Part shown: positions 12,221 through 27,805 of the stretch, piece after piece
Position numbering within the stretch: the stretch's first letter is position 1
Layout: each line of letters begins with the position of its first letter
Source: Dyadobacter sp. 676
GTDB lineage: Bacteria; Bacteroidota; Bacteroidia; Cytophagales; Spirosomataceae
DNA: 64,000 nucleotides
Assembly (NCBI RefSeq): GCF_040448675.1
Contig: NZ_CP159289.1
Coordinates: 2,294,001 to 2,358,000 of the forward strand
Direction: 5' to 3'
Notes under the pieces: generated by a model
The model's database searches: none
The model's input: only the letters and a program-made list of their open reading frames with translations
Told to the model about the DNA's origin: nothing
Position numbers and translations under genes: made by a program

Positions 12221-13291
12221 TTAAGCGACTGCAACAGTAGTATCAGGTTTAAGCGTAACGGTTTCCTCATTCGGGACGGCGTCGCCGACCATCGGGCCGT
12301 TCTGCGACAGCTCACTACCTTCTTTTTTGGATTTGAAAATGGGCCACATAAACTGGGCGTACCATTCTTCCTCGTGATAATGCTTGATGCCATACGACGT
12401 CGGGTATTTTCGGGTGATTATGCCGGTTCCGAAAATAATGTCCCAAAGAAAGAACATATTCCCGAAGTTCCCTTTATAATATCCCACCCCGTCGTCGCTT
12501 GTATCCGCGTGGTGTGCATGGTGTGTGGCAGGCGTCGAAATAAGTCTCTCGAGTACCCAACCGATCGGTTGAAGCCATTTCTTTTCATAAAATGGCTTGT
12601 CCCATGGAATGCTCGAATGCGCGCCGGTCGTAATGAACGACTTGATCACCTTCACAAACAATGCTGCGTAACCCAATCCCAGGTAAGTCAAGGCGACAGT
12701 GAGGTAAGTTTGCGAGAAAAACAATGTGTAAATCACATTCTGGCGGCTGGCCATAGCCATGCCCATATACGGCGCGGAGTGGTGGGTCCGGTGGAAACGC
12801 CACAGCCACGGTAGCTGGTGGTGCAGGCGATGGTACCAATATTGTGTAAGATCGTCGGCCACGGCGATAATCAGAAACGCCCACCAAAAGGGCACCCAAT
12901 CGAGTATATTTTTAGCATCGGGCAATACTACCGGGAGAAATTTCAACCCGAAATAGGCCACGAACGGGCGGATCACCAGCTTGGGTACAATAAAGCAGAC
13001 TATATCGAGGGTCCGCTCGTTCTTCGTCCATTTGTTTTCATACAAACCTGCCGCGAACTCGATCACGCCCAGGACGAGGACAATGACCGGCAATCCCCAG
13101 GAACTCAGGTTTTTGAATACGTTTTCAATGAATGCGGGGGCTTTGAAAGGAAATTCATTGGCTCCCTCCCACGGCCGGTAGCCGAAAATCTGGAAGCTTG
13201 CAAACATCAAAACAATCGGTGCGATGTACAACAGTACACTCAGCAGGCCGTCGCGGGTAATTTTCCGGGCCGTTGCATTGTCCAATTTCAT
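12221..13291 (-). CDS. Sterol desaturase / fatty-acid hydroxylase superfamily membrane enzyme
   Basis: This encodes 356 residues with at least five hydrophobic segments. The di-iron histidine clusters of the superfamily are present: HRLHH (about 155), HRTHHS (about 168) and HHAHH (about 260). Members use O2 to hydroxylate or desaturate lipid chains at the membrane. The substrate cannot be read from the sequence. Sulfonolipid or other unusual lipid modification is a plausible Cytophagales role, but only a guess. It lies 33 bases after a 40-residue membrane protein, downstream of a long leader with Cys-rich short ORFs. Confidence 0.88.
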   Translation of the reverse strand: MKLDNATARKITRDGLLSVLLYIAPIVLMFASFQIFGYRPWEGANEFPFKAPAFIENVFKNLSSWGLPVIVLVLGVIEFAAGLYENKWTKNERTLDIVCFIVPKLVIRPFVAYFGLKFLPVVLPDAKNILDWVPFWWAFLIIAVADDLTQYWYHRLHHQLPWLWRFHRTHHSAPYMGMAMASRQNVIYTLFFSQTYLTVALTYLGLGYAALFVKVIKSFITTGAHSSIPWDKPFYEKKWLQPIGWVLERLISTPATHHAHHADTSDDGVGYYKGNFGNMFFLWDIIFGTGIITRKYPTSYGIKHYHEEEWYAQFMWPIFKSKKEGSELSQNGPMVGDAVPNEETVTLKPDTTVAVA

Positions 13292-13620: not shown

Positions 13621-13722
13621 TCAACAGCAGCAACCTGAATAAACCAGGGAGAAACAAAGGGGGAAAGTATGCCCACCCACTCGCCCCGATGGGGACTTGC
13701 AAAGTAAATTAACCGCGCTCAT
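13621..13722 (-). CDS. Candidate cysteine leader peptide (uORF ending SGCCC)
   Basis: The ATG at 13722 opens a 33-residue ORF ending LVYSGCCC directly before TGA; the Cys codons are TGC TGC TGT. Two more Cys lie upstream. It sits about 70 bases inside the leader predicted from the promoter at 13792-13809. Placing three consecutive rare-residue codons immediately before the stop is the classical arrangement for ribosome-stalling attenuation. A second, similar case precedes the SusC gene at 27.7 kb. If transcription starts at the inner TACTTTGC box (13699-13706), the ATG would be lost and only GTG/CTG starts would remain. Function is inferred. Confidence 0.4.
   Translation of the reverse strand: MSAVNLLCKSPSGRVGGHTFPLCFSLVYSGCCC
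13699..13706 (-). promoter_or_regulatory. Possible inner -7 element TACTTTGC
   Basis: TACTTTGC on the minus strand matches the Bacteroidota -7 consensus TAnnTTTGC, with a TTG about 18 bases upstream at the -33 position. It lies inside the upstream uORF, so it may be a second promoter for the membrane-protein/desaturase operon. Confidence 0.4.
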
Positions 13723-13791
13723 ATCAACGATGCCTGGATTAATACTCGGCTCAGGGTGGTTCAGGAGCCTCGCTTTTTAATAGTATACTTA

Positions 13792-13809
13792 TTTGATAGA
13801 CAAAGTAAA
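13792..13809 (-). promoter_or_regulatory. Promoter of the long leader upstream of the desaturase-family operon
   Basis: The minus strand reads TTTACTTTGTCTATCAAA, containing TACTTTG (-7). The same 18-mer recurs exactly at 19920-19937, and its core TTTACTTTGYCTAT recurs before SusC. An expected start near 13793 gives a leader of roughly 345 nt before the small membrane gene. A TTG lies about 21 bases upstream of the box. Confidence 0.5.
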
Positions 13810-18243: not shown

Positions 18244-19690
18244 TCAGTTCGTTGCCAGGCTTCCAAACGGGAAAATAGCCGAGGAGACATGCGCCCGGTT
18301 CATAATCTGACCTAATTCTCTGGCCTTTTCTGGGAATTGCGGGGTCAGATTATTTTTTTCCTGCGGGTCTTTTGAGAGATCATAGAGCTCAACCAGCGCA
18401 TCCGGATTACCGGCGGCTTTCAACCGGACCGCCTTCCAGTTGCCCTGGCGCACCGCCTGCCTGCCGCCTTGCTCGTGGAATTCCCAGTACAGATAATCAT
18501 GCTTTTTCTGGGTTGGCTTGCCCTTCAATGCGTCGGTAAATGAAATGCCGTCGATATTGCGGGGCGCGGACGCATTTGCCAGCTCTGCGAAAGTGGGCAG
18601 AATGTCCCAGAAGGCGCCGATGTAATCGCTTTTGGAACCCGGCTTGATGACAGCGGGCCAACGAGCGGCGAATGGTTCACGAATACCACCCTCATACAAA
18701 TCGCGCTTCACGCCGCGGAAGCCGGCACTGCTGTCGAAAAAATTCGGGTCCGCCCCTCCTTCGATGTGCGGGCCATTGTCGCTGGTGAAAATGACCAGCG
18801 TATTCTTATCCAGTCCTTTTTCCTTCAATTTATCCATCACCTGCCCCACGTACAGGTCCAGGCGTGCCACCATGGCCGCAAAAGTGGCGTGAGGAAATTC
18901 CTGCGATGCATAACCGCCACCGGTAGCCCCGGGGCCATAGTCGGCACCCTTGTATGGCTTTTCTCCGAATTTACCTTTATAGAACCTGAAAAGGCTGTCG
19001 TCCGGCACAACCAGCTCTGCGTGCGGCAGAATGTAGGGCAGGAACAAGAAGAACGGCTGCTTTCCGTCCTGTGCCTCCAGAAAAGCGATCGCCTTTTTCT
19101 GGATCAGGTCGGGGGCGTATTCCTTGTTGTTGATCAGCCCTTTATTTCCTTCCAAGAGTATTTTTTTGCTGTTATCCCAAAGGTGTTCGGGATAATAGCG
19201 ATGTGCCAGGCTCTGGCAGTTATAACCAAAAAAACGGTCGAATCCCTGCTTGTTCGGGTCACCCTCCGAACCCACCGGGCCCAATCCCCACTTCCCGAAA
19301 GCGGCCGTTGTATATCCCGACTTTTTTTAGTATTTCCGCCAATGTGATCACCGAATCGGCAATGGGTTGCTGGCCTTCCGGTTCCACACTTTTGTTGCCG
19401 CGAATGTAGGTATGCCCCGTGTGCTGGCCCGTCAGCAGCGACGACCGCGAAGGCGCGCATACGGAGGTACCCGCATAGAATTGACTGAAAATCATCCCTT
19501 CCCGCGCGAGACGATCGATGTTGGGTGTTTTAATAAGTTTTTGCCCGTTAAAACCGACATCGCCATAGCCGAGGTCGTCGGCCAGGATAAATACGATATT
19601 CGGACGTGCCGGTTTAGGTGTTTGGGCTGGGGAATGATGGCAAAGAAACGACGTGGCAAAGAGGGCAACCAGCAAAAAGTACTTTTTCAT
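18244..19690 (-). CDS. Secreted S1-type sulfatase, frameshifted at an A7 tract
   Basis: This should encode about 481 residues. Signal peptide: MKKYFLLVALFATSFLCHHS. The metal-binding DD is in NIVFILADDLGYGDVGF, and the sulfatase signature CAPSRSSLLTGQ contains the Cys converted to formylglycine. Downstream, FTSDNGPHIEGGADP supplies the second metal-ligand region. The frame breaks at 19322-19328 (seven T on the plus strand). Removing one base restores LKKSGYTTAAFGKWGLGPVGS, a perfect sulfatase segment, so the gene is probably intact in the organism. It hydrolyses a sulfate ester, probably from a glycan. It has its own leader promoter (19920-19937) and is separated from the SusC-SusD-sulfatase operon by two toxin-antitoxin modules. 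Confidence 0.88.
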
Positions 19691-19769
19691 TATGGAGTAG
19701 ATTAATACACTTCAGAAAGACATTGCAATCCCGGGAATACTTGGATTTAACTTGGTAGCTGTATCTTTG

Positions 19770-19868
19770 TTTCCGATACCCTACGACAGCCCGGACGACC
19801 GGCATGAATTGACAACCACCGAAAATTCCGGCAAGTCGCGCCTGGACTGTCTCTTAGGGTATCGGAAA
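19770..19868. repeat. 99-bp inverted-repeat element / long hairpin in the sulfatase leader
   Basis: TTTCCGATACCCTA (19770-19783) and TAGGGTATCGGAAA (19855-19868) are perfect 14-bp inverted arms. The adjoining inner bases (CGACAG and CTGTCT; CGGAC and GTCC) also pair, leaving a loop around ATTGACAACCACC. On the minus strand this lies in the leader of the sulfatase. On the plus strand a -7-like TATCTTTG ends at 19769, directly before the first arm. It could be a structured leader RNA, a small RNA or a MITE-like repeat. No protein-coding frame in it is convincing. Confidence 0.5.
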
Positions 19869-19919
19869 GCAGATATGTTTCTGAATATTGCTAATCGGGA
19901 GATCGACGTAATCTACTTG

Positions 19920-19937
19920 TTTGATAGACAAAGTAAA
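19920..19937 (-). promoter_or_regulatory. Promoter of the frameshifted sulfatase gene
   Basis: The minus strand reads TTTACTTTGTCTATCAAA, identical over 18 bases to 13792-13809, with a -7 TACTTTG. A TTG lies 17 bases upstream (TTTGCTTGTT region). It predicts a leader of about 230 nt containing the 99-bp hairpin. The box is itself half of an inverted repeat, CAAAGTA (19929-19935) with TACTTTG downstream. Confidence 0.5.
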
Positions 19938-21345: not shown

Positions 21346-22785
21346 CTATTTCCGAACGGCACGCCCTATCTCCCGAACGTTCTTCCCTGTCTTATGCTGC
21401 AAATCATCACCCATGTCTTCACGGGCTGCATCGGCGATCTTTTCGAGTTCCGCCACTATTTCCGGGTTCTGTTCCAGCACGTCATACCGCTCGGACGGAT
21501 CGCGGGCGAGGTTGTATAATGCCTTCGGGTATTGATGATCTTCCGGCGCCGGGCCGGGCTGACCGTTTTTACCCGGCAATGACCCCTCGTACGTGCGGCC
21601 GGGATGCGCGAACACGAGTTTCCAATTGCCTTTCCGAACAGCTTCGAGGCTGTTTTTGCGGTAGTAATACAAAAAGGTTTCCCGCGGCGTCTGGCTTTCG
21701 TCGCCTTTGAGCAATGCGCTGAAATCGACGCCGTCGATTTTTTCTTTCGGTAATTTCGCGCCGGTGAGTTTGACGATCGTCGGGAGGACGTCGAGTGTGG
21801 ACAAAAGCTTGTTGGAAACCCTTCCGGCCGGAATAACGCCCGGCCAGCGCATAATGCAAGGTTCCCGTTGCCCGCCTTCGAAGGAGGTTCCTTTACCTTC
21901 GCGGAAACCTCCGGCAGAACCGGCATGGTCGCCGTAATTCAACCACGGACCGTTGTCGCTGGTAAAAATTACAAGGGTGTTATTATCCAGGCCCTGCGCC
22001 TTCAACTCCTTCATGATCTCCCCTACCGACCAGTCGAGTTCCATCATCACATCGCCGAAAATACCTCTTTCGCTTTTACCGCGGAACTTCGCGGACGCGG
22101 CCAGGGGCACATGTGGGAGCGGATGCGGCACGTACAGGAAGAAGGGTTTGCTTTTGTTTCTTTTGATAAACGAGATGGCCTTTTCGGTGATTACGGGCGT
22201 CAGTTCACTGGCATCTTCCAGGTTTTTGATCTCTTTTACCTGCTTGTTACCGTCGATCCAGTGAAGCGGCGGATATTTTGCGCGCTCCTGCCACGGGTGC
22301 AACGGCCACATGTCATGCGAATAAGGCACGCCGTAATATTCGTCGAAGCCCTGTTGGAGCGGTAAAAATTCCTGGTCGCTGCCCAGATGCCATTTACCGA
22401 AAATACCGGTTGCGTAGCCCTGCGCCTTCACGAGTTCGGCAATGGTCTCTTCTTTGGGGTTAAGCCCAAGCCCCGCATTCGGCCCGAACGCCCCTGATAT
22501 GCCCAGGCGGTTGGGATAACAACCCGTAAGTAATGCGGCACGGGAGGCGCTGCAAACCGCCTGCGCGGCCATAAAATTGGTGAACCGGGTACCCTCCATG
22601 GCCATTTTGTCGAGATTAGGCGTCTTATAGCCTAATGCGCCGTTTACGGAAAGGTCGCCATAGCCGAGGTCGTCGATGAAGAACAGGACGATGTTGGGTG
22701 TTTTCGCCGCCGGTTTGCCGGATTGAAAGGCCATCAGAAGGCAAAGGCCCGTTGTGACCAGCAGCAGGGAGAGTATTCTAAGCAT
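21346..22785 (-). CDS. Secreted S1-type sulfatase of the SusC/SusD operon
   Basis: This encodes 479 residues. Signal peptide: MLRILSLLLVTTGLCLLMAFQSG. The metal site is in NIVLFFIDDLGYGDLSVNG. The signature is CSASRAALLTG, where Ala replaces the usual Pro (C-x-A-S-R), a known variant that still carries the formylglycine Cys. FGKWHLG and FTSDNGPWLNYGDHAGSAGG complete the active-site set. It lies 89 bases after susD, with a strong hairpin in the gap. The gene is probably co-transcribed with the transporter, so sulfated oligosaccharide import and desulfation are coupled. Formylglycine maturation must come from a gene outside the window. Confidence 0.92.
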   Translation of the reverse strand: MLRILSLLLVTTGLCLLMAFQSGKPAAKTPNIVLFFIDDLGYGDLSVNGALGYKTPNLDKMAMEGTRFTNFMAAQAVCSASRAALLTGCYPNRLGISGAFGPNAGLGLNPKEETIAELVKAQGYATGIFGKWHLGSDQEFLPLQQGFDEYYGVPYSHDMWPLHPWQERAKYPPLHWIDGNKQVKEIKNLEDASELTPVITEKAISFIKRNKSKPFFLYVPHPLPHVPLAASAKFRGKSERGIFGDVMMELDWSVGEIMKELKAQGLDNNTLVIFTSDNGPWLNYGDHAGSAGGFREGKGTSFEGGQREPCIMRWPGVIPAGRVSNKLLSTLDVLPTIVKLTGAKLPKEKIDGVDFSALLKGDESQTPRETFLYYYRKNSLEAVRKGNWKLVFAHPGRTYEGSLPGKNGQPGPAPEDHQYPKALYNLARDPSERYDVLEQNPEIVAELEKIADAAREDMGDDLQHKTGKNVREIGRAVRK

Positions 22786-22873: not shown

Positions 22874-24469
22874 TTACCAGTTCGGATTTTGTTTCAGGTT
22901 CGGGTTCAAATCGCGCTCCTTTTGCGGGATCGGCCAGAGGTAATGGCGGCTCGCATCAAAAACACGGTCCGAAGAGGCAGCCTGCACCGTAACCAGCTTG
23001 CCGCTGGCATCCGGGTAAGTAATGCCGAACACCGGACCATTCATTACCTGCTCCCCGATTTTCCATCGACGGATGTCATACAACCGCTGTCCCTCGAAAG
23101 CCAGTTCCACCGTCCGTTCGCGCCGGACGATTTCGCGCAACGCAGCCTGGGCGGTTGTCGTTACCGAAGGCTGTTTCACATCGGTACGGCCGTTTCTTAC
23201 CTGATTAATGGCCGCCAGCACGCTCGCATCGATTTGCCCCAGCTCGATTTTCGCTTCGGCATAAGTCAGCAGCACCTCCGCGTAACGTAGCAGGATAATG
23301 TTGATGCCGCTATTGCCGGGATTCGCGAAATCTTCGGCATTGATATACTTTTTAATATTAAAACCAGTGGTAGAAGCGATGTAAGTGCTTCCGATCGCAT
23401 CGGCGGTGCCACTGGTCGGGCGGGGCTGGAAAGTAATACCGCTGGGTAATGCGTCGCCTTCGAGGAATACCGAAAATTTCAGGCGCGGGTCGCGATTGAC
23501 ATAAGGTTTCGCCGGATCGTAGCCGCTCGAAGGATCGGTGATTTTCTTGCCTTCGAGTGTTTCATAGGTGTCTACCAATGCTTTTGTCGGCACATAGGTA
23601 CTTTGCGCATTTTTCTGGCTGTACGGGGCGAGCAAGTTGAAGACGTTGTTCGGATAAACATCCTTCAAATACTGTTTGTCCAAAAGCACTTCCTTGTTGT
23701 TCTCCGCGGCGTAGCTATACAGTTTTTCATAGGACTCATTCAAACCATACACTCCGAGCTTGATCACCTGATCGGCGGCATCGGCAGCTTTCTGGTAACG
23801 TCCCGCGTACAGGTCCGCACGCGCGAGCAAGCCTAATGCGGCACCTTTCGTAAACCGGCCTTTATCTGCGGCACCGTAAGTAGCCGGCAACAATGCAGCA
23901 GCTTCGGTCAGTTCTTTTTCCACAAAATTCCAGATTTCCTCGACCGGTGTGTTGGTCAATGCGCGGCCTTCATCGATACTGATCGACGACGTTACCAGCG
24001 GCACCGGACCAAACAATCCGGCGAGTTTCAAATAATGGTAAGCCCGTAGCGCCTTTGCTTCGCCTTTGAGCTGATTGATCAATGCAGCATTAGTGCCCGG
24101 CACTTTATCGACGTTTTCAAGGAAATAATTTACGCCGCGAATGCCCCGGTAAGCCCTTTTCCACTCTTCATATATCACCGAACTCGTAGCGTCATAACTT
24201 CCGGCCTCAACGTAAGCGGCCACGTTGAAGCTCTGGTTGGTGTGCGCGAGATCGGTAATGCCGTCCCAGGTTACGGCGGTCGTGCTGTCCAGATCGGTGT
24301 AGAGGGAGTTAACGGCAAGTTTGGCGTCGTTTTCGGTTTTCCAGAACAAATCTTCTGAAAGCCGGTCGTTGGGAACGGTTTCGAGCAGGCCCGAATCGCA
24401 GGAGGACAGACCAAGCATCAATGCCGTAATTCCTGCGTAAATGGTATGTTTAAATGTACTTGTTTTCAT
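22874..24469 (-). CDS. SusD/RagB-type outer-membrane glycan-binding lipoprotein
   Basis: This encodes 531 residues. I chose ATG 24469 because it opens the lipoprotein signal MKTSTFKHTIYAGITALML with lipobox LSSC; the frame is open 33 codons further upstream. SusD features: LLETVPNDRLSEDLFWKTEND near the N-terminus, TPR-like helices with GEAKALRAYHYLKLAGLFGPVPL, and the C-terminal RRERTVELAFEGQRLYDIRRW and YLWPIPQKERDLNPNLKQNP. It works with the SusC transporter encoded eight bases upstream to capture oligosaccharides. Ligand specificity is unknown, though the operon's sulfatase suggests a sulfated glycan. Confidence 0.93.
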   Translation of the reverse strand: MKTSTFKHTIYAGITALMLGLSSCDSGLLETVPNDRLSEDLFWKTENDAKLAVNSLYTDLDSTTAVTWDGITDLAHTNQSFNVAAYVEAGSYDATSSVIYEEWKRAYRGIRGVNYFLENVDKVPGTNAALINQLKGEAKALRAYHYLKLAGLFGPVPLVTSSISIDEGRALTNTPVEEIWNFVEKELTEAAALLPATYGAADKGRFTKGAALGLLARADLYAGRYQKAADAADQVIKLGVYGLNESYEKLYSYAAENNKEVLLDKQYLKDVYPNNVFNLLAPYSQKNAQSTYVPTKALVDTYETLEGKKITDPSSGYDPAKPYVNRDPRLKFSVFLEGDALPSGITFQPRPTSGTADAIGSTYIASTTGFNIKKYINAEDFANPGNSGINIILLRYAEVLLTYAEAKIELGQIDASVLAAINQVRNGRTDVKQPSVTTTAQAALREIVRRERTVELAFEGQRLYDIRRWKIGEQVMNGPVFGITYPDASGKLVTVQAASSDRVFDASRHYLWPIPQKERDLNPNLKQNPNW

Positions 24470-24477
24470 AAATGTGA

Positions 24478-27400
24478 TCAGAATGAGAGGTTCAAACCAA
24501 ATGTGTACAATGCGGTTTGCGGGAAATAAACGGCACGGCCGGACGGTACTTCGGGGTCGAGGTTCCATTCATTCAGCTTGGAAAATGTCAGCAGATTGGT
24601 AGCCGAAGCGTAAACACGGATGCGGCTTACCCTAAGCTTGCTCACGATGTCCGCCGGAATATTGTACGCGAGCTGCACGTTTTTCAGGCGCAGGTAAGAA
24701 CCGTCGATCACCAGCCGGTCCGAAGTCGCCACATTTCGAAGGTCGAACTTCACCGGGCGAGGGAAACGCGCCCCGGGGTTTTCGGGAGTCCAGTAATTAT
24801 TCGTGTAAATCTCATGGGTGAAACCTTCCTGGTTGCCCATTTCCGCGAGTGCACCGGCCAGGCGTGCATCTACTTTCGCCGCTCCCTGAAACAATATGCT
24901 CAGGTCGAAACCCTTGAAAGAGAAATCGCCGTTCAGGCCAAATGTGTATTTCGGGAATGAGTTACCGATCACGGTCATGTCGTCGGCGTTGATCTTGCCG
25001 TCGCCATTCCGATCCACATATTTTACGTCGCCGGGCTTGGTATTGGCGACGTAGGTTGCCTTGTACTCGGTAATTTCCTGCTGGGACTGGAAAAGTCCGT
25101 CGGTCTGATAACCCCACAGTGTGTTGATCGGCAGGCCTTTGGCGATGATATAACGCGGGTCGATATCAGAACCGGTGATGTACGGACCGGTGCCTTTCAA
25201 ATCCACGACTTTGTTTTCATTAATACTCAAATTTCCTCCCAAACCATACCGGAAACCTGACGCACTCGCAGCGCCACGGTAGTTCAGGCTAAACTCCCAG
25301 CCTTTATTCTCTACCGAACCTGCATTCTGCGGCGGTGCTTTCAAGCCTATCGTGGCAGGGATGTCGAGGTTCAAAAGAATATCGTCGGTGAGCTTGCGAT
25401 AGTAATCGGCGGTTAACGCCAACCGCTTGTTCAGAAATACCGCATCGATACCGAGGTCGAGTTGCGTGGTAGACTCCCAGCCCAGGCCGGTATTAGCCAG
25501 CGTCGTAGGGCGGTAGCCTTGCACCGGCACACCACCGAAGCTGTAACCGAGGGCCGTCAACGCCGAATAGTAGCTATACAAATCCACCGACTGGTTTCCG
25601 GTAATCCCCCACGAGCCGCGGAGTTTCAGGTCATTAACCGCTTTTTCCAGCCCTTGCCAGAAATTTTCCTTCGAAATGCGCCATCCCGCCGAGAATGAAG
25701 GGAAGAAACTGTATTGTTTTGAGCCGGTGAATTTGGAAGAACCGTCATAGCGGCCATTCGCCTCGAACAGGTATTTCTCTTTGTAATCATAATTTACCCG
25801 TCCGAAATACGAGCGCAGGCCATATTCGGCGTCGTTGCCGGAATTGCTTTTGGTACCGTCATTCGCGCCCTGACCGATCGACCCGATGTCATTGTTATAA
25901 AACCGCTCACGGTAGGCCGACAGGAAAGTCTGCGTATTGCCGATTTGCGAGTAACCCACCAACGCCTTCAAACCATGACTGCCAAAGCTTTTTTCGTAGG
26001 TCAGCAAATTATTGATCGTATACTCGCGCAGCGTGTTCCTGACTTCCGTGAGCGAATTGATGGCGACTGTTTTGGTAACGTTGGTATTCTTGTCGGTGTT
26101 AGTATATGAGTTGGTAAAGTTTTTCTGGTTGGTAAATGTGCCCCGGCCAGCGATTTGCGTGGAGAACGTCAATCCTTCCACAATGTCGAATTCAGCCTTG
26201 ACATAACCCGCCAGGTAATCCGTCACTTGTCTTGACTGCCCCCCCGATTTCATTAAACATCAATGGGTTATTCCCCTGCGTGCTCAATCCATAAGTACCA
26301 TCCGGATATTTGGGAACCGCCCACAATGTGCCGTGAAAGAAGTGATTCAAGGGTTGTGGGTTCTGTCCGGAATTGTTCACGGTGGGGTTCAATGCGCGGG
26401 CATAGCGGTAGTTGATGTCGCCGCTGACGCGAATGCGTTTCGAGACATTGTAGTCGGTATTCAAACGGAATTCGCCGATTTTATTGGAATAACCGGCAAT
26501 TACCCCCTGCTGGTCCTGGAAACGGGCGCTCAACCGGGTGCGGATCATGTCAGTTCCGCCGGCTACCGAAATGGTGTGATTTTGCTGGGGAGCGGAGCGA
26601 AGCATCGTTTCGAACCAGGTATTCGGCATCGGGTATTTCTCCCGGTCGGTCGCATGAACGTACGCTTGAATGGATTCCTCTGTAAAACGCGCCGGAACAG
26701 CCAGGCCGGCATTCGTGTACGCAGCCACCTGCTCGCGCATGTAAGCCTCGATCCCCATCATTTTGGGCACGTTGTTGGATTTCTGAACGGCATAATAACC
26801 GTGGTAATCCACCTGTACCTTGCCGCCTTTGGCACGCTTCGTAGTGACGAGAATGACGCCATTGGTTGCGCGGGAGCCGTAAATGGCTGTCGAAGAGGCA
26901 TCCTTCAAAACGGAAATCGACTCGATATCGTCCGGGTTGATATCGCTCAAACGCTGCTCGATGCCATCCACGATCACCAATGCATCGTTTTTGCCGAGAT
27001 CATACCCGCTGGTACTGCTGCCGTTGATATTGAACGTGGTGATACCCCGGACCCGGATATTGGTATTCGACTTCCCCGGCGAACCACCTTGATCGAGCAC
27101 GGTCACACCCGGCATCAGTCCCTGCATCGACTGCTGGATATTCGATACCGGCCGTTTGGTAATTGCTTCACCGCTGATCTGGGACACCGAGTTCGTGAGG
27201 GCATTCCGTTTCTGGGTGCCGTAACCCACCACTACGACTTCCTCCAACTGCTTCGTATCCGCAGCCAGCTTGATATCGATCGTGGCGCGGCCGTTCACGG
27301 CCACCTCCTGGGTAACGTACCCGATCCCGGAGAAAACAAGAATACCGTTCGATGGTGCATTGATTTCGTACTTACCGTCGGCGTCCGTGGAGGTACCGGT

Positions 27401-27574
27401 AAGCGTGTTTTTGACTACAATATTGACGCCTGGCACCGAACCATTGTCGGTTGCGGACGTTACGGTGCCTTTCACGGCGATGTTCTGGGCGAAGGCGCCG
27501 AGGCCAGGGAGCAGCAAAGCCGCAATCAGCAGGCCTCTGCTCAGGAGAGCGTTTCTGGATAGATTTTGGAACAT
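24478..27574 (-). CDS. SusC/RagA TonB-dependent outer-membrane transporter, frameshifted at a G7 tract
   Basis: This should encode about 1031 residues. Order: signal peptide (about 1-29), a carboxypeptidase-regulatory-like beta sandwich (VKGTVTSATDNGSVPGVNIV), the TonB-box region and plug (EEVVVVGYGTQKRNALTNSV; GVTVLDQGGSPG; DASSTAIYGSRATNGVILVTTK), then the 22-strand barrel ending TALYTFGLNLSF. The frame breaks at the C7 run (plus strand) 26239-26245. Deleting one base restores NEIGGQSRQVTDYLAGYVKAEF without a gap. The total length and flawless flanks favour an error over a dead gene. It transports large oligosaccharides using TonB/ExbBD. It is first in the SusC-SusD-sulfatase operon. Confidence 0.9.
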
Positions 27575-27677: not shown

Positions 27678-27708
27678 GCTGTTACCGGCTAGCAGCGGCA
27701 ACAACAGC
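27678..27708 (-). promoter_or_regulatory. Leader hairpin overlapping the Cys codons of the SusC-operon uORF
   Basis: In the minus-strand transcript GCTGTTGTTGCCG (27708-27696) can pair with CGGTAACAGC (27687-27678), with one 3-nt bulge and a G-U pair. The 5' arm holds the Cys codons of the leader peptide and the loop holds its TAG. A ribosome paused on these codons would block the hairpin. There is no T tract directly behind, so the output may be on Rho access or downstream folding. Confidence 0.42.
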
Positions 27709-27730
27709 GGAATAATTGGGAAAGATCCAT
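27689..27730 (-). CDS. Cysteine-rich leader peptide MDLSQLFRCCCRC upstream of susC
   Basis: This 13-codon ORF begins at ATG 27730 and ends at TAG 27689-27691, encoding MDLSQLFRCCCRC. Four of its last five residues are Cys. It lies about 60 nt inside the leader from the promoter at 27798-27805 and about 115 nt before the susC start. The pattern resembles polycysteine attenuator peptides known from mycobacteria (established there, by memory). Here it stands in front of a transporter operon containing a sulfatase, so a logical role is to raise expression when cysteinyl-tRNA is short, that is, when sulfur is scarce. Translation is not proven. Confidence 0.5.
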   Translation of the reverse strand: MDLSQLFRCCCRC

Positions 27731-27797
27731 GCGGCGGTTCAGGTTGGTGGTTGTCAATGGGCAAATCAATAAACTATAAATTCTATTAAACATATAG

Positions 27798-27805
27798 GCA
27801 AAGTA
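27798..27805 (-). promoter_or_regulatory. Promoter of the SusC-SusD-sulfatase operon (TACTTTGC)
   Basis: The minus strand reads TACTTTGC, an exact TAnnTTTGC -7 element, with TTG motifs 14 and 17 bases upstream. The following CTATATG shares the core TTTACTTTGYCTAT with the promoters at 13.8 and 19.9 kb. It predicts a leader of about 215 nt. Apart from the leader peptide and its hairpin, the 27575-27917 gap holds nothing else recognisable. Confidence 0.6.

Follow-up and report, generated by a model that had tools for sequence, protein, structure and literature searches.

The window studied here, i.e., the whole stretch of 64,000 nucleotides that was analyzed, comes from the genome of Dyadobacter sp. 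676, a single contig of 7.28 Mb. It carries an operon with the gene order susC, susD and sulfatase, preceded by a promoter palindrome and a short leader open reading frame (ORF) (Table 1). The original prediction, made from the letters of this DNA, had proposed such an operon. Its gene order is confirmed, and it is found in 28 of the 28 fetched loci in which the N-terminal part of SusC is at least 72% identical (L197-L221, L230-L232). By this N-terminal part, the close named relatives are Dyadobacter fermentans and D. endophyticus (93%). The susC gene of the window is not intact, however: it is broken into two overlapping frames, where close relatives have one open frame of 1047-1115 codons. 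Sulfatase 2, further along the window, also consists of two overlapping frames. The split frames of both genes may result from decay or from assembly indels.

Table 1. Features of the window discussed in the text (positions are those of the window).
Feature	Position	Strand	Remarks
Promoter palindrome TTTGCCTATATGTTTAATAGA (TTTGYCTAY-N7-RTAGR)	27782..27802	-	susC promoter
ACAACCACCAA element	27744..27754	-	no clear hairpin at this copy
Leader ORF MDLSQLFRCCCRC	27689..27730	-	ATG at 27730, TAG ending at 27689; confirmed exactly
Hairpin with Cys codons	27678..27708	-	arms 27708-27696 and 27687-27678; stop codon in loop
susC, 5' part	26192..27574	-	CarboxypepD_reg and Plug domains
susC, 3' part	24478..26253	-	beta-barrel; other frame than 5' part
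susD	22874..24568	-	PF07980
Sulfatase	21346..22785	-	PF00884
Second palindrome copy	19912..19932	-	exact; ahead of sulfatase 2
Sulfatase 2	18244..19690	-	two overlapping frames, 19690-19259 and 19284-18244
Third palindrome copy	13784..13804	-	one mismatch; model R1 43 bits, E 1.1e-7 over window
5' hairpin GGCUC...GAGCC	13748..13769	-	AACCACC in loop
Second Cys leader ORF MSAVNLLCKSPSGRVGGHTFPLCFSLVYSGCCC	13621..13722	-	ends in YSGCCC and stop
FA_hydroxylase gene	12221..13291	-	PF04116; downstream of second Cys leader

The leader ORF, MDLSQLFRCCCRC, stands between the palindrome and the operon, and its stop is separated by 114 nt from the start of susC. A -7-like sequence, TTACTTTG, lies upstream of it. 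The prediction that the Cys codons occupy the 5' arm of a hairpin whose loop contains the stop codon held up at this locus: the hairpin has a folding energy of -14.1 kcal/mol (z -2.7), and only 1 of 200 shuffles was equally stable. The entire 234-nt leader has no unusual structure (z 0.16, with 108 of the 200 shuffles equally stable). No hairpin at the ACAACCACCAA element was seen in the two orthologous leaders scored, nor by R1, a model of palindrome and hairpin. The susC leader of the window contains CCACC, a motif to which we return below; GGUGG is absent from it, and model R1 finds no 5' hairpin there.

To assess the conservation of the leader, we aligned ten close susC orthologues, the window included. 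Six have the ORF at the same place (MNLSPIFSICCCRR, MNLSRSSPFCRCCR, MNLFNASPFPCCSR, MILYKIRPSSCCCR, the window's own and a shortened MKLFRTSPFNC), and the segment is absent from the other four, which still keep the promoter and ACAACCACCAA. Adjacent Cys codons (CC) are found in five of the six ORFs, the shortened one having a single Cys owing to an earlier stop. In other words, the ORF is lost or shortened in five of the ten. We then considered a larger set of 27 orthologues, 26 of them with a readable promoter, from which the distant relatives with longer N-termini (L058-L061) were excluded. Eight of the 26 have CC among the last six codons of an ATG ORF, where 0.14 would be expected from dinucleotide shuffles. 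No ORF ending in CC was found in the 30 examined upstream regions of other susC genes of the same genome (out of 56 matches). Hence, a leader peptide with Cys codons upstream of susC, as predicted, occurs well beyond chance, but the alignment backs adjacent Cys codons near the stop and not an invariant CCC. The helix around the stop is kept in five of the six ORF-bearing relatives, window included, but by one-sided changes only, and the consensus fold has an unfavourable covariation term.

A few observations concern other loci. In L035, L038 and L041, GC-rich repeats resembling GGTCAACGGTCGGCCGTC lie between the leader ORF and susC and make the leader longer. L058-L061 have no Cys leader; the sequence just upstream of them resembles, by eye, the end of an anti-sigma gene, which suggests ECF/FecR control. 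Among 80 contig loci with SusC relatives, only five, all from Dyadobacter, have the palindrome within the 1000 nt that precede the match. Three loci outside Dyadobacter have a CC-ended ORF and no palindrome, and were taken as chance occurrences.

The palindrome is better conserved than the ORF: it is exact at 21 of the 27 susC orthologues and has one mismatch at a further four. Together with the preceding TTAC it includes a sequence like the Bacteroidota -7 box, and at the window's susC it probably overlaps the transcription start. In the Dyadobacter sp. 676 genome we identified nine exact sites, against none with a reversed-pattern control, and 48 Dyadobacter genomes together hold 371 sites, where the reversed pattern gives 81. 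With one mismatch allowed there is no enrichment in the own genome (29 sites vs 35 in the control), so such sites, including that of the second Cys leader of the window, count by context only. The exact sites precede the window's susC operon and sulfatase 2; a second susC-susD-sulfatase operon (with sulfatase and SusD domains); an operon of a PBP-like gene, whose match is below Pfam's cut-off, and a sulfatase; a 542-aa gene, by eye a sulfatase, and then a PF00884 sulfatase; a cysteine desulfurase-like gene, which scores under the equivalog cut-offs; an operon that combines a sulfatase with an FGE maturase; an ECF-FecR-SusC operon; and a gene for a 129-aa protein that fits no known family and is oriented divergently from a sulfatase gene. 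Targets elsewhere in the genus include redoxin and rhodanese-thioredoxin genes, and some have no evident role in sulfur metabolism (an OmpH-like gene and three genes without clear Pfam family). The target was taken as the first ATG ORF of at least 120 codons behind the palindrome, an assignment that is mistaken or doubtful at a few loci. The 129-aa protein (L247:7279-7668) is conserved, and six of the palindrome-anchored leaders that we read belong to its gene; its L247 and L331 copies have no Pfam match and the L331 copy no NCBIfam match. Outside the Spirosomataceae, four genomes that belong to a single genus also carry the palindrome in front of PBP relatives (39-42% identity), and no Cys ORF is found there between the two. 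The count of exact sites against the control and the targets, which are mostly sulfatases, SusCD and the cysteine desulfurase, show that the palindrome marks a sulfur regulon in the Dyadobacter of the window. As candidates for the protein that recognizes it, three Rrf2 regulators scored above cut-off, and the stretches around them contain no site.

One target gives a view of this regulon that does not depend on peptides. A SAM-I riboswitch (RF00162) lies directly behind the palindrome and ahead of the cysteine desulfurase-like gene in the own genome (L244:16880-16973), and in 12 of the 12 orthologous leaders fetched. These leaders have SAM-I instead of a Cys ORF, and the link of the regulon to sulfur is thus independent of Cys codons. 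At the gathering score, Rfam has no match in the window to a T-box or any other known leader, and RF00162 at the cysteine desulfurase is the only match in seven loci of the own genome. The leader of sulfatase 2 (around 19766-19870, minus strand) has no short ATG ORF; it contains long complementary arms, CTTTCCGATACCCTA and TAGGGTATCGGAAA, as well as TTTTCGGTGGTTG, a sequence also found after the leader stop of FA_hydroxylase.

To study how common the Cys leaders are across the genus, we read 130 of the 371 palindrome-anchored Dyadobacter leaders, 109 of which are testable, i.e., at least 60 nt long. An ATG ORF with CC among its last six codons is present in 39 of the 109, compared with 1.29 expected from shuffles, and ORFs containing CCC are present in 20, compared with 0.04; since the leaders come from related genomes and are not independent, these expectations overstate the significance. 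The Cys ORFs are unevenly distributed among targets: PBP-like 14/16 (e.g., MKSMDRYSSRSIIMPMVGFPGYSYALASCCCC), FA_hydroxylase 7/11, susC2-type 6/8, sulfatase-3 3/5, window-type susC 2/4, ECF 1/4 and rhodanese-thioredoxin 1/4, with five of the 39 in small or unassigned target groups. None was found for cysteine desulfurase (0/12), sulfatase 2 (0/11), redoxin (0/7) and the 129-aa gene (0/6). Twelve leaders of the sulfatase/FGE type, 24-67 nt from the palindrome start, are below testable length. The recurrence of palindrome and Cys leaders ahead of sulfatase, SusCD and sulfur genes bears out the suggestion that the susC leader of the window is connected to sulfur supply.

The predicted peptides have 13-48 codons, with their Cys codons directly at the stop or a little ahead of it. 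Over the 39 ORFs, 122 of 234 codons in the six final positions are Cys codons, compared with 18 of 949 in the remainder. Their start lies 76 nt (median) behind that of the palindrome, and the distance from their stop to the gene varies from 26 to 314 nt. In the runs, TGT prevails over TGC (86:36, compared with 100:101 in the main genes), so some constraint at the RNA level is possible. A genus-wide search for the pattern CCCRC-stop gave 25 matches, the window's own among them, against eight in the control. CCC codons as sole criterion proved too strict, the conserved feature being adjacent Cys among the last codons. Three further Dyadobacter PBP leaders, outside the 130, all have Cys runs. The PBP orthologue (62% identity) of two genomes from one genus in a different family has a leader that ends in PCCCCTCL and a stop, with a variant palindrome, GTCTATAGAATTACTAGAC, in front of it; of the remaining six PBP matches of that search, one of which is clipped by a contig end, none has a Cys leader. 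The own genome shows no Cys leader in front of cysH or metZ. In one relative, at L300:1574 onward, the beginning of the usual Cys leader (MKSMDVYSS...) runs in frame into the PBP-like protein, as if Cys run and spacer had been lost. Comparison of the leaders demonstrates a family of predicted ORFs with Cys enriched at their end.

Most of these leaders share further elements. CCACC is found near the 5' end in 36 of the 39 Cys leaders and GGTGG inside the ORF in 29, and both occur together in 29 of the 39, vs 7 of 75 other leaders. The FA_hydroxylase leader of the window has both GGUGG and the 5' hairpin. Of 30 GGTGG occurrences, 27 are read in frame 2. The first copy precedes the Cys pair by 31-50 nt, and by 34 or 37 nt in 23 of 29 cases. 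CCACC may be placed in the loop of a hairpin with a stem of at least six pairs in 41 of 66 distinct sequences, for 10.7 expected. Over the first eight positions of the arms, pairing is 0.708 in 63 unselected sequences, compared with 0.490 (sd 0.020) for shuffled arms and with 0.532 and 0.411 for slid-arm controls. An alignment of 43 hairpins, from which three more sequences were excluded, has many two-sided changes; it is biased, since its members were chosen for at least 5/7 pairs, and the unselected comparison is that of the 63 sequences. The comparison shows that the arms of the predicted 5' hairpin covary. RNAalifold on 15 whole PBP leaders (omitting the short L286 and L300) gave an unfavourable covariation term, yet the 5' hairpin appears in the fold. 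When model R1 was run with strict filters against 395 genomes of the class, the one genome matched at E 0.001 was that of the window itself; as no other Dyadobacter came up, the search tells little about the genus and indicates only that palindrome and hairpin together are uncommon in the rest of the class. Inspection by eye also raised a pairing between CAGCAG and the Cys run, which we abandoned because it is not conserved. The CCACC loop probably pairs with GGUGG inside most ORFs. The distance between GGUGG and the Cys run is about one ribosome length, suggesting that this pairing is tied to the position of the ribosome.

The region after the leader stop is less conserved. We could not find a conserved terminator there (T6 occurs in 6 of the 39 post-stop regions), and the Cys run together with the 60 nt that follow it shows no more structure than shuffled sequence across the 39 Cys leaders (mean z -0.19). 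The idea that the Cys-codon hairpin is the switch is thus not supported for the family as a whole, since this hairpin is seen in the close susC orthologues only; the structures that recur, the CCACC-loop hairpin and GGUGG, lie upstream instead. Post-stop regions have a mild bias towards C over G (0.231 vs 0.187, compared with 0.205 vs 0.211 in other leaders). No mutually exclusive antiterminator and intrinsic terminator were found, hence we do not class the leaders as trp-type attenuators. Cys codons just before the stop, the lack of a conserved terminator and the variable post-stop region argue against the trp type and fit a layout like that of tnaC, with the stalled ribosome covering the RNA behind the stop. 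Seliverstov et al. (2005, PMC1262725) described such a layout for Actinobacteria.

Two features expected of a leader-peptide attenuator are found: a short ORF between promoter and gene that is enriched in Cys codons, and targets that serve sulfur supply, with few exceptions, and not the biosynthesis of cysteine in the strict sense. Comparison of the leaders gives strong support to the reading that they sense cysteine and control sulfur scavenging, and the susC leader of the window very likely belongs to a family of cysteine-sensing leader peptides in the sulfur-scavenging regulon of Dyadobacter. Such leaders would probably let the cell switch on sulfur scavenging when cysteine runs short. Transcription would start at the shared palindrome, to which a sulfur-responsive regulator probably binds, and the transcript would first be translated into a peptide ending in Cys codons. 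When charged tRNA-Cys is plentiful, the ribosome would finish the peptide and leave, and downstream expression would be cut; when it is scarce, the ribosome would stall at the Cys codons, allowing expression of the gene that follows. We tentatively favour that the post-stop region would be exposed to Rho-type termination unless covered by the stalled ribosome, given the lack of a conserved terminator hairpin, the variable post-stop length and the mild excess of C over G. A ribosome queued behind the stalled one could cover GGUGG. In its most specific form, this would be a class of leaders of Bacteroidota in which a 5' hairpin with a 7-nt loop, RRCCACC, pairs with GGUGG in the ORF, and the stalled or queued ribosome decides on this contact and hence on the expression of sulfur-scavenging genes. 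Together with the palindrome, it would form a two-layer regulon in which a target has either a Cys leader or a SAM riboswitch, or lacks both. We put forward this full version tentatively, as possible rather than probable.

Other explanations have to be weighed. The control could be translational, with stalled or queued ribosomes rearranging the leader RNA and opening the main start codon. This is a serious contender, if short of probable: it would give a role to the conserved 5' hairpin and to GGUGG in the ORF, it agrees with the lack of a conserved terminator, and the excerpted text of PMC13236596 states translational attenuation for cysteine genes of M. smegmatis. It would less easily account for stop-to-gene distances as variable as those given above, nor did the 15 PBP leaders show conserved structure near the start codon of the main gene; they fold much like shuffles (mean z -0.25). 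Alternatively, the regulator of the palindrome alone might provide sulfur control, the Cys ORFs being remnants or by-products in this susC family. The susC orthologues by themselves might suggest so, as 25 of the 27 have the palindrome exact or one off, yet 18 of the 26 have no Cys-terminal ORF. The excess of such ORFs over unrelated targets, and their presence in another family, makes this explanation unlikely.

The Cys codons might also matter for another reason than the sensing of cysteine. If the UUGUUG/UGUUG repeats were a site of RNA-protein or RNA-RNA contact, their reading as Cys would be incidental, and the over-use of TGT and the hairpin at the stop in the close susC group could be understood in this way. 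The runs, however, close ATG ORFs in the right reading frame at a rate far above that of shuffles, they use both TGT and TGC, and interruptions (CCSCC, CCRCC) keep the frame, so that we regard an RNA site as quite improbable. It is more improbable still that the ORFs make functional Cys-rich peptides, for instance binding metal or sulfide, which do not act in cis. Peptides of this size, some with similar N-termini (MKSMDRYSS..), could be functional, but their sequence and length vary between targets, and what they have in common is the Cys end, GGUGG and the position. Cys-rich short ORFs were sought behind this palindrome promoter only and may also occur elsewhere.

If cysteine-sensing control of sulfur scavenging is true, cysteine-sensing leader peptides extend to Bacteroidota and to SusCD/sulfatase loci. 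These loci are usually discussed as systems of carbon acquisition (PUL); some of the sulfatase loci would then serve sulfur nutrition and be switched by the supply of cysteine. The set of motifs (palindrome, CCACC-loop hairpin, GGUGG and Cys run) makes the regulon and its regulator findable. In the open-access literature (PMC; top-ranked titles and abstracts) we found no Cys leader described for Bacteroidota.

Several known systems are comparable. Canestrari et al. (2020) reportedly described polycysteine leaderless sORF attenuators of mycobacteria, with cysteine-responsive control of operons. They resemble the present leaders by the polycysteine short ORF and by this kind of control. The mycobacterial sORFs are leaderless, whereas the Dyadobacter ORFs begin well past the palindrome and mostly behind a hairpin. 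In E. coli, TnaC senses free Trp through the nascent peptide. The likeness to tnaC lies in a stall point right where the ORF ends and in the possible masking of Rho loading; unlike TnaC, the runs of Cys codons in Dyadobacter suggest sensing of tRNA-Cys. Within the same regulon, the SAM-I riboswitch RF00162 is a second sulfur sensor behind the palindrome, which relies on a ligand-binding aptamer and no peptide.

In Rhodobacterales, the uORFC-8-2 motif ahead of cysS has tandem Cys codons and a proposed ribosome-mediated attenuation; according to the excerpted text of PMC8632094 it has an intrinsic terminator and Cys usually at positions 14-15, whereas in Dyadobacter we found no terminator and the Cys codons are at the end of the ORF. 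In Actinobacteria, leader peptides with Cys runs precede the cys operons and cbs (Seliverstov et al. 2005, PMC1262725). In the excerpts of that paper, no conserved terminator is reported, Rho is a weak suggestion by its authors and the tna operon is named as a comparison. The Dyadobacter leaders share with them a short ORF, a Cys run near the stop, the association with sulfur genes and the lack of a conserved terminator. They differ by phylum and by targets, which are cys operons and cbs there and sulfatase and SusCD scavenging genes here, and by the palindrome, the CCACC-loop hairpin and GGUGG, features of Dyadobacter that are not mentioned in those excerpts (PMC1262725). As the peptides are short, we take the kinship with the actinobacterial polycysteine leaders as an analogy only. 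The sensing principle is thus already known, while the phylum, the targets, the layout of the regulon and the 5' architecture differ.
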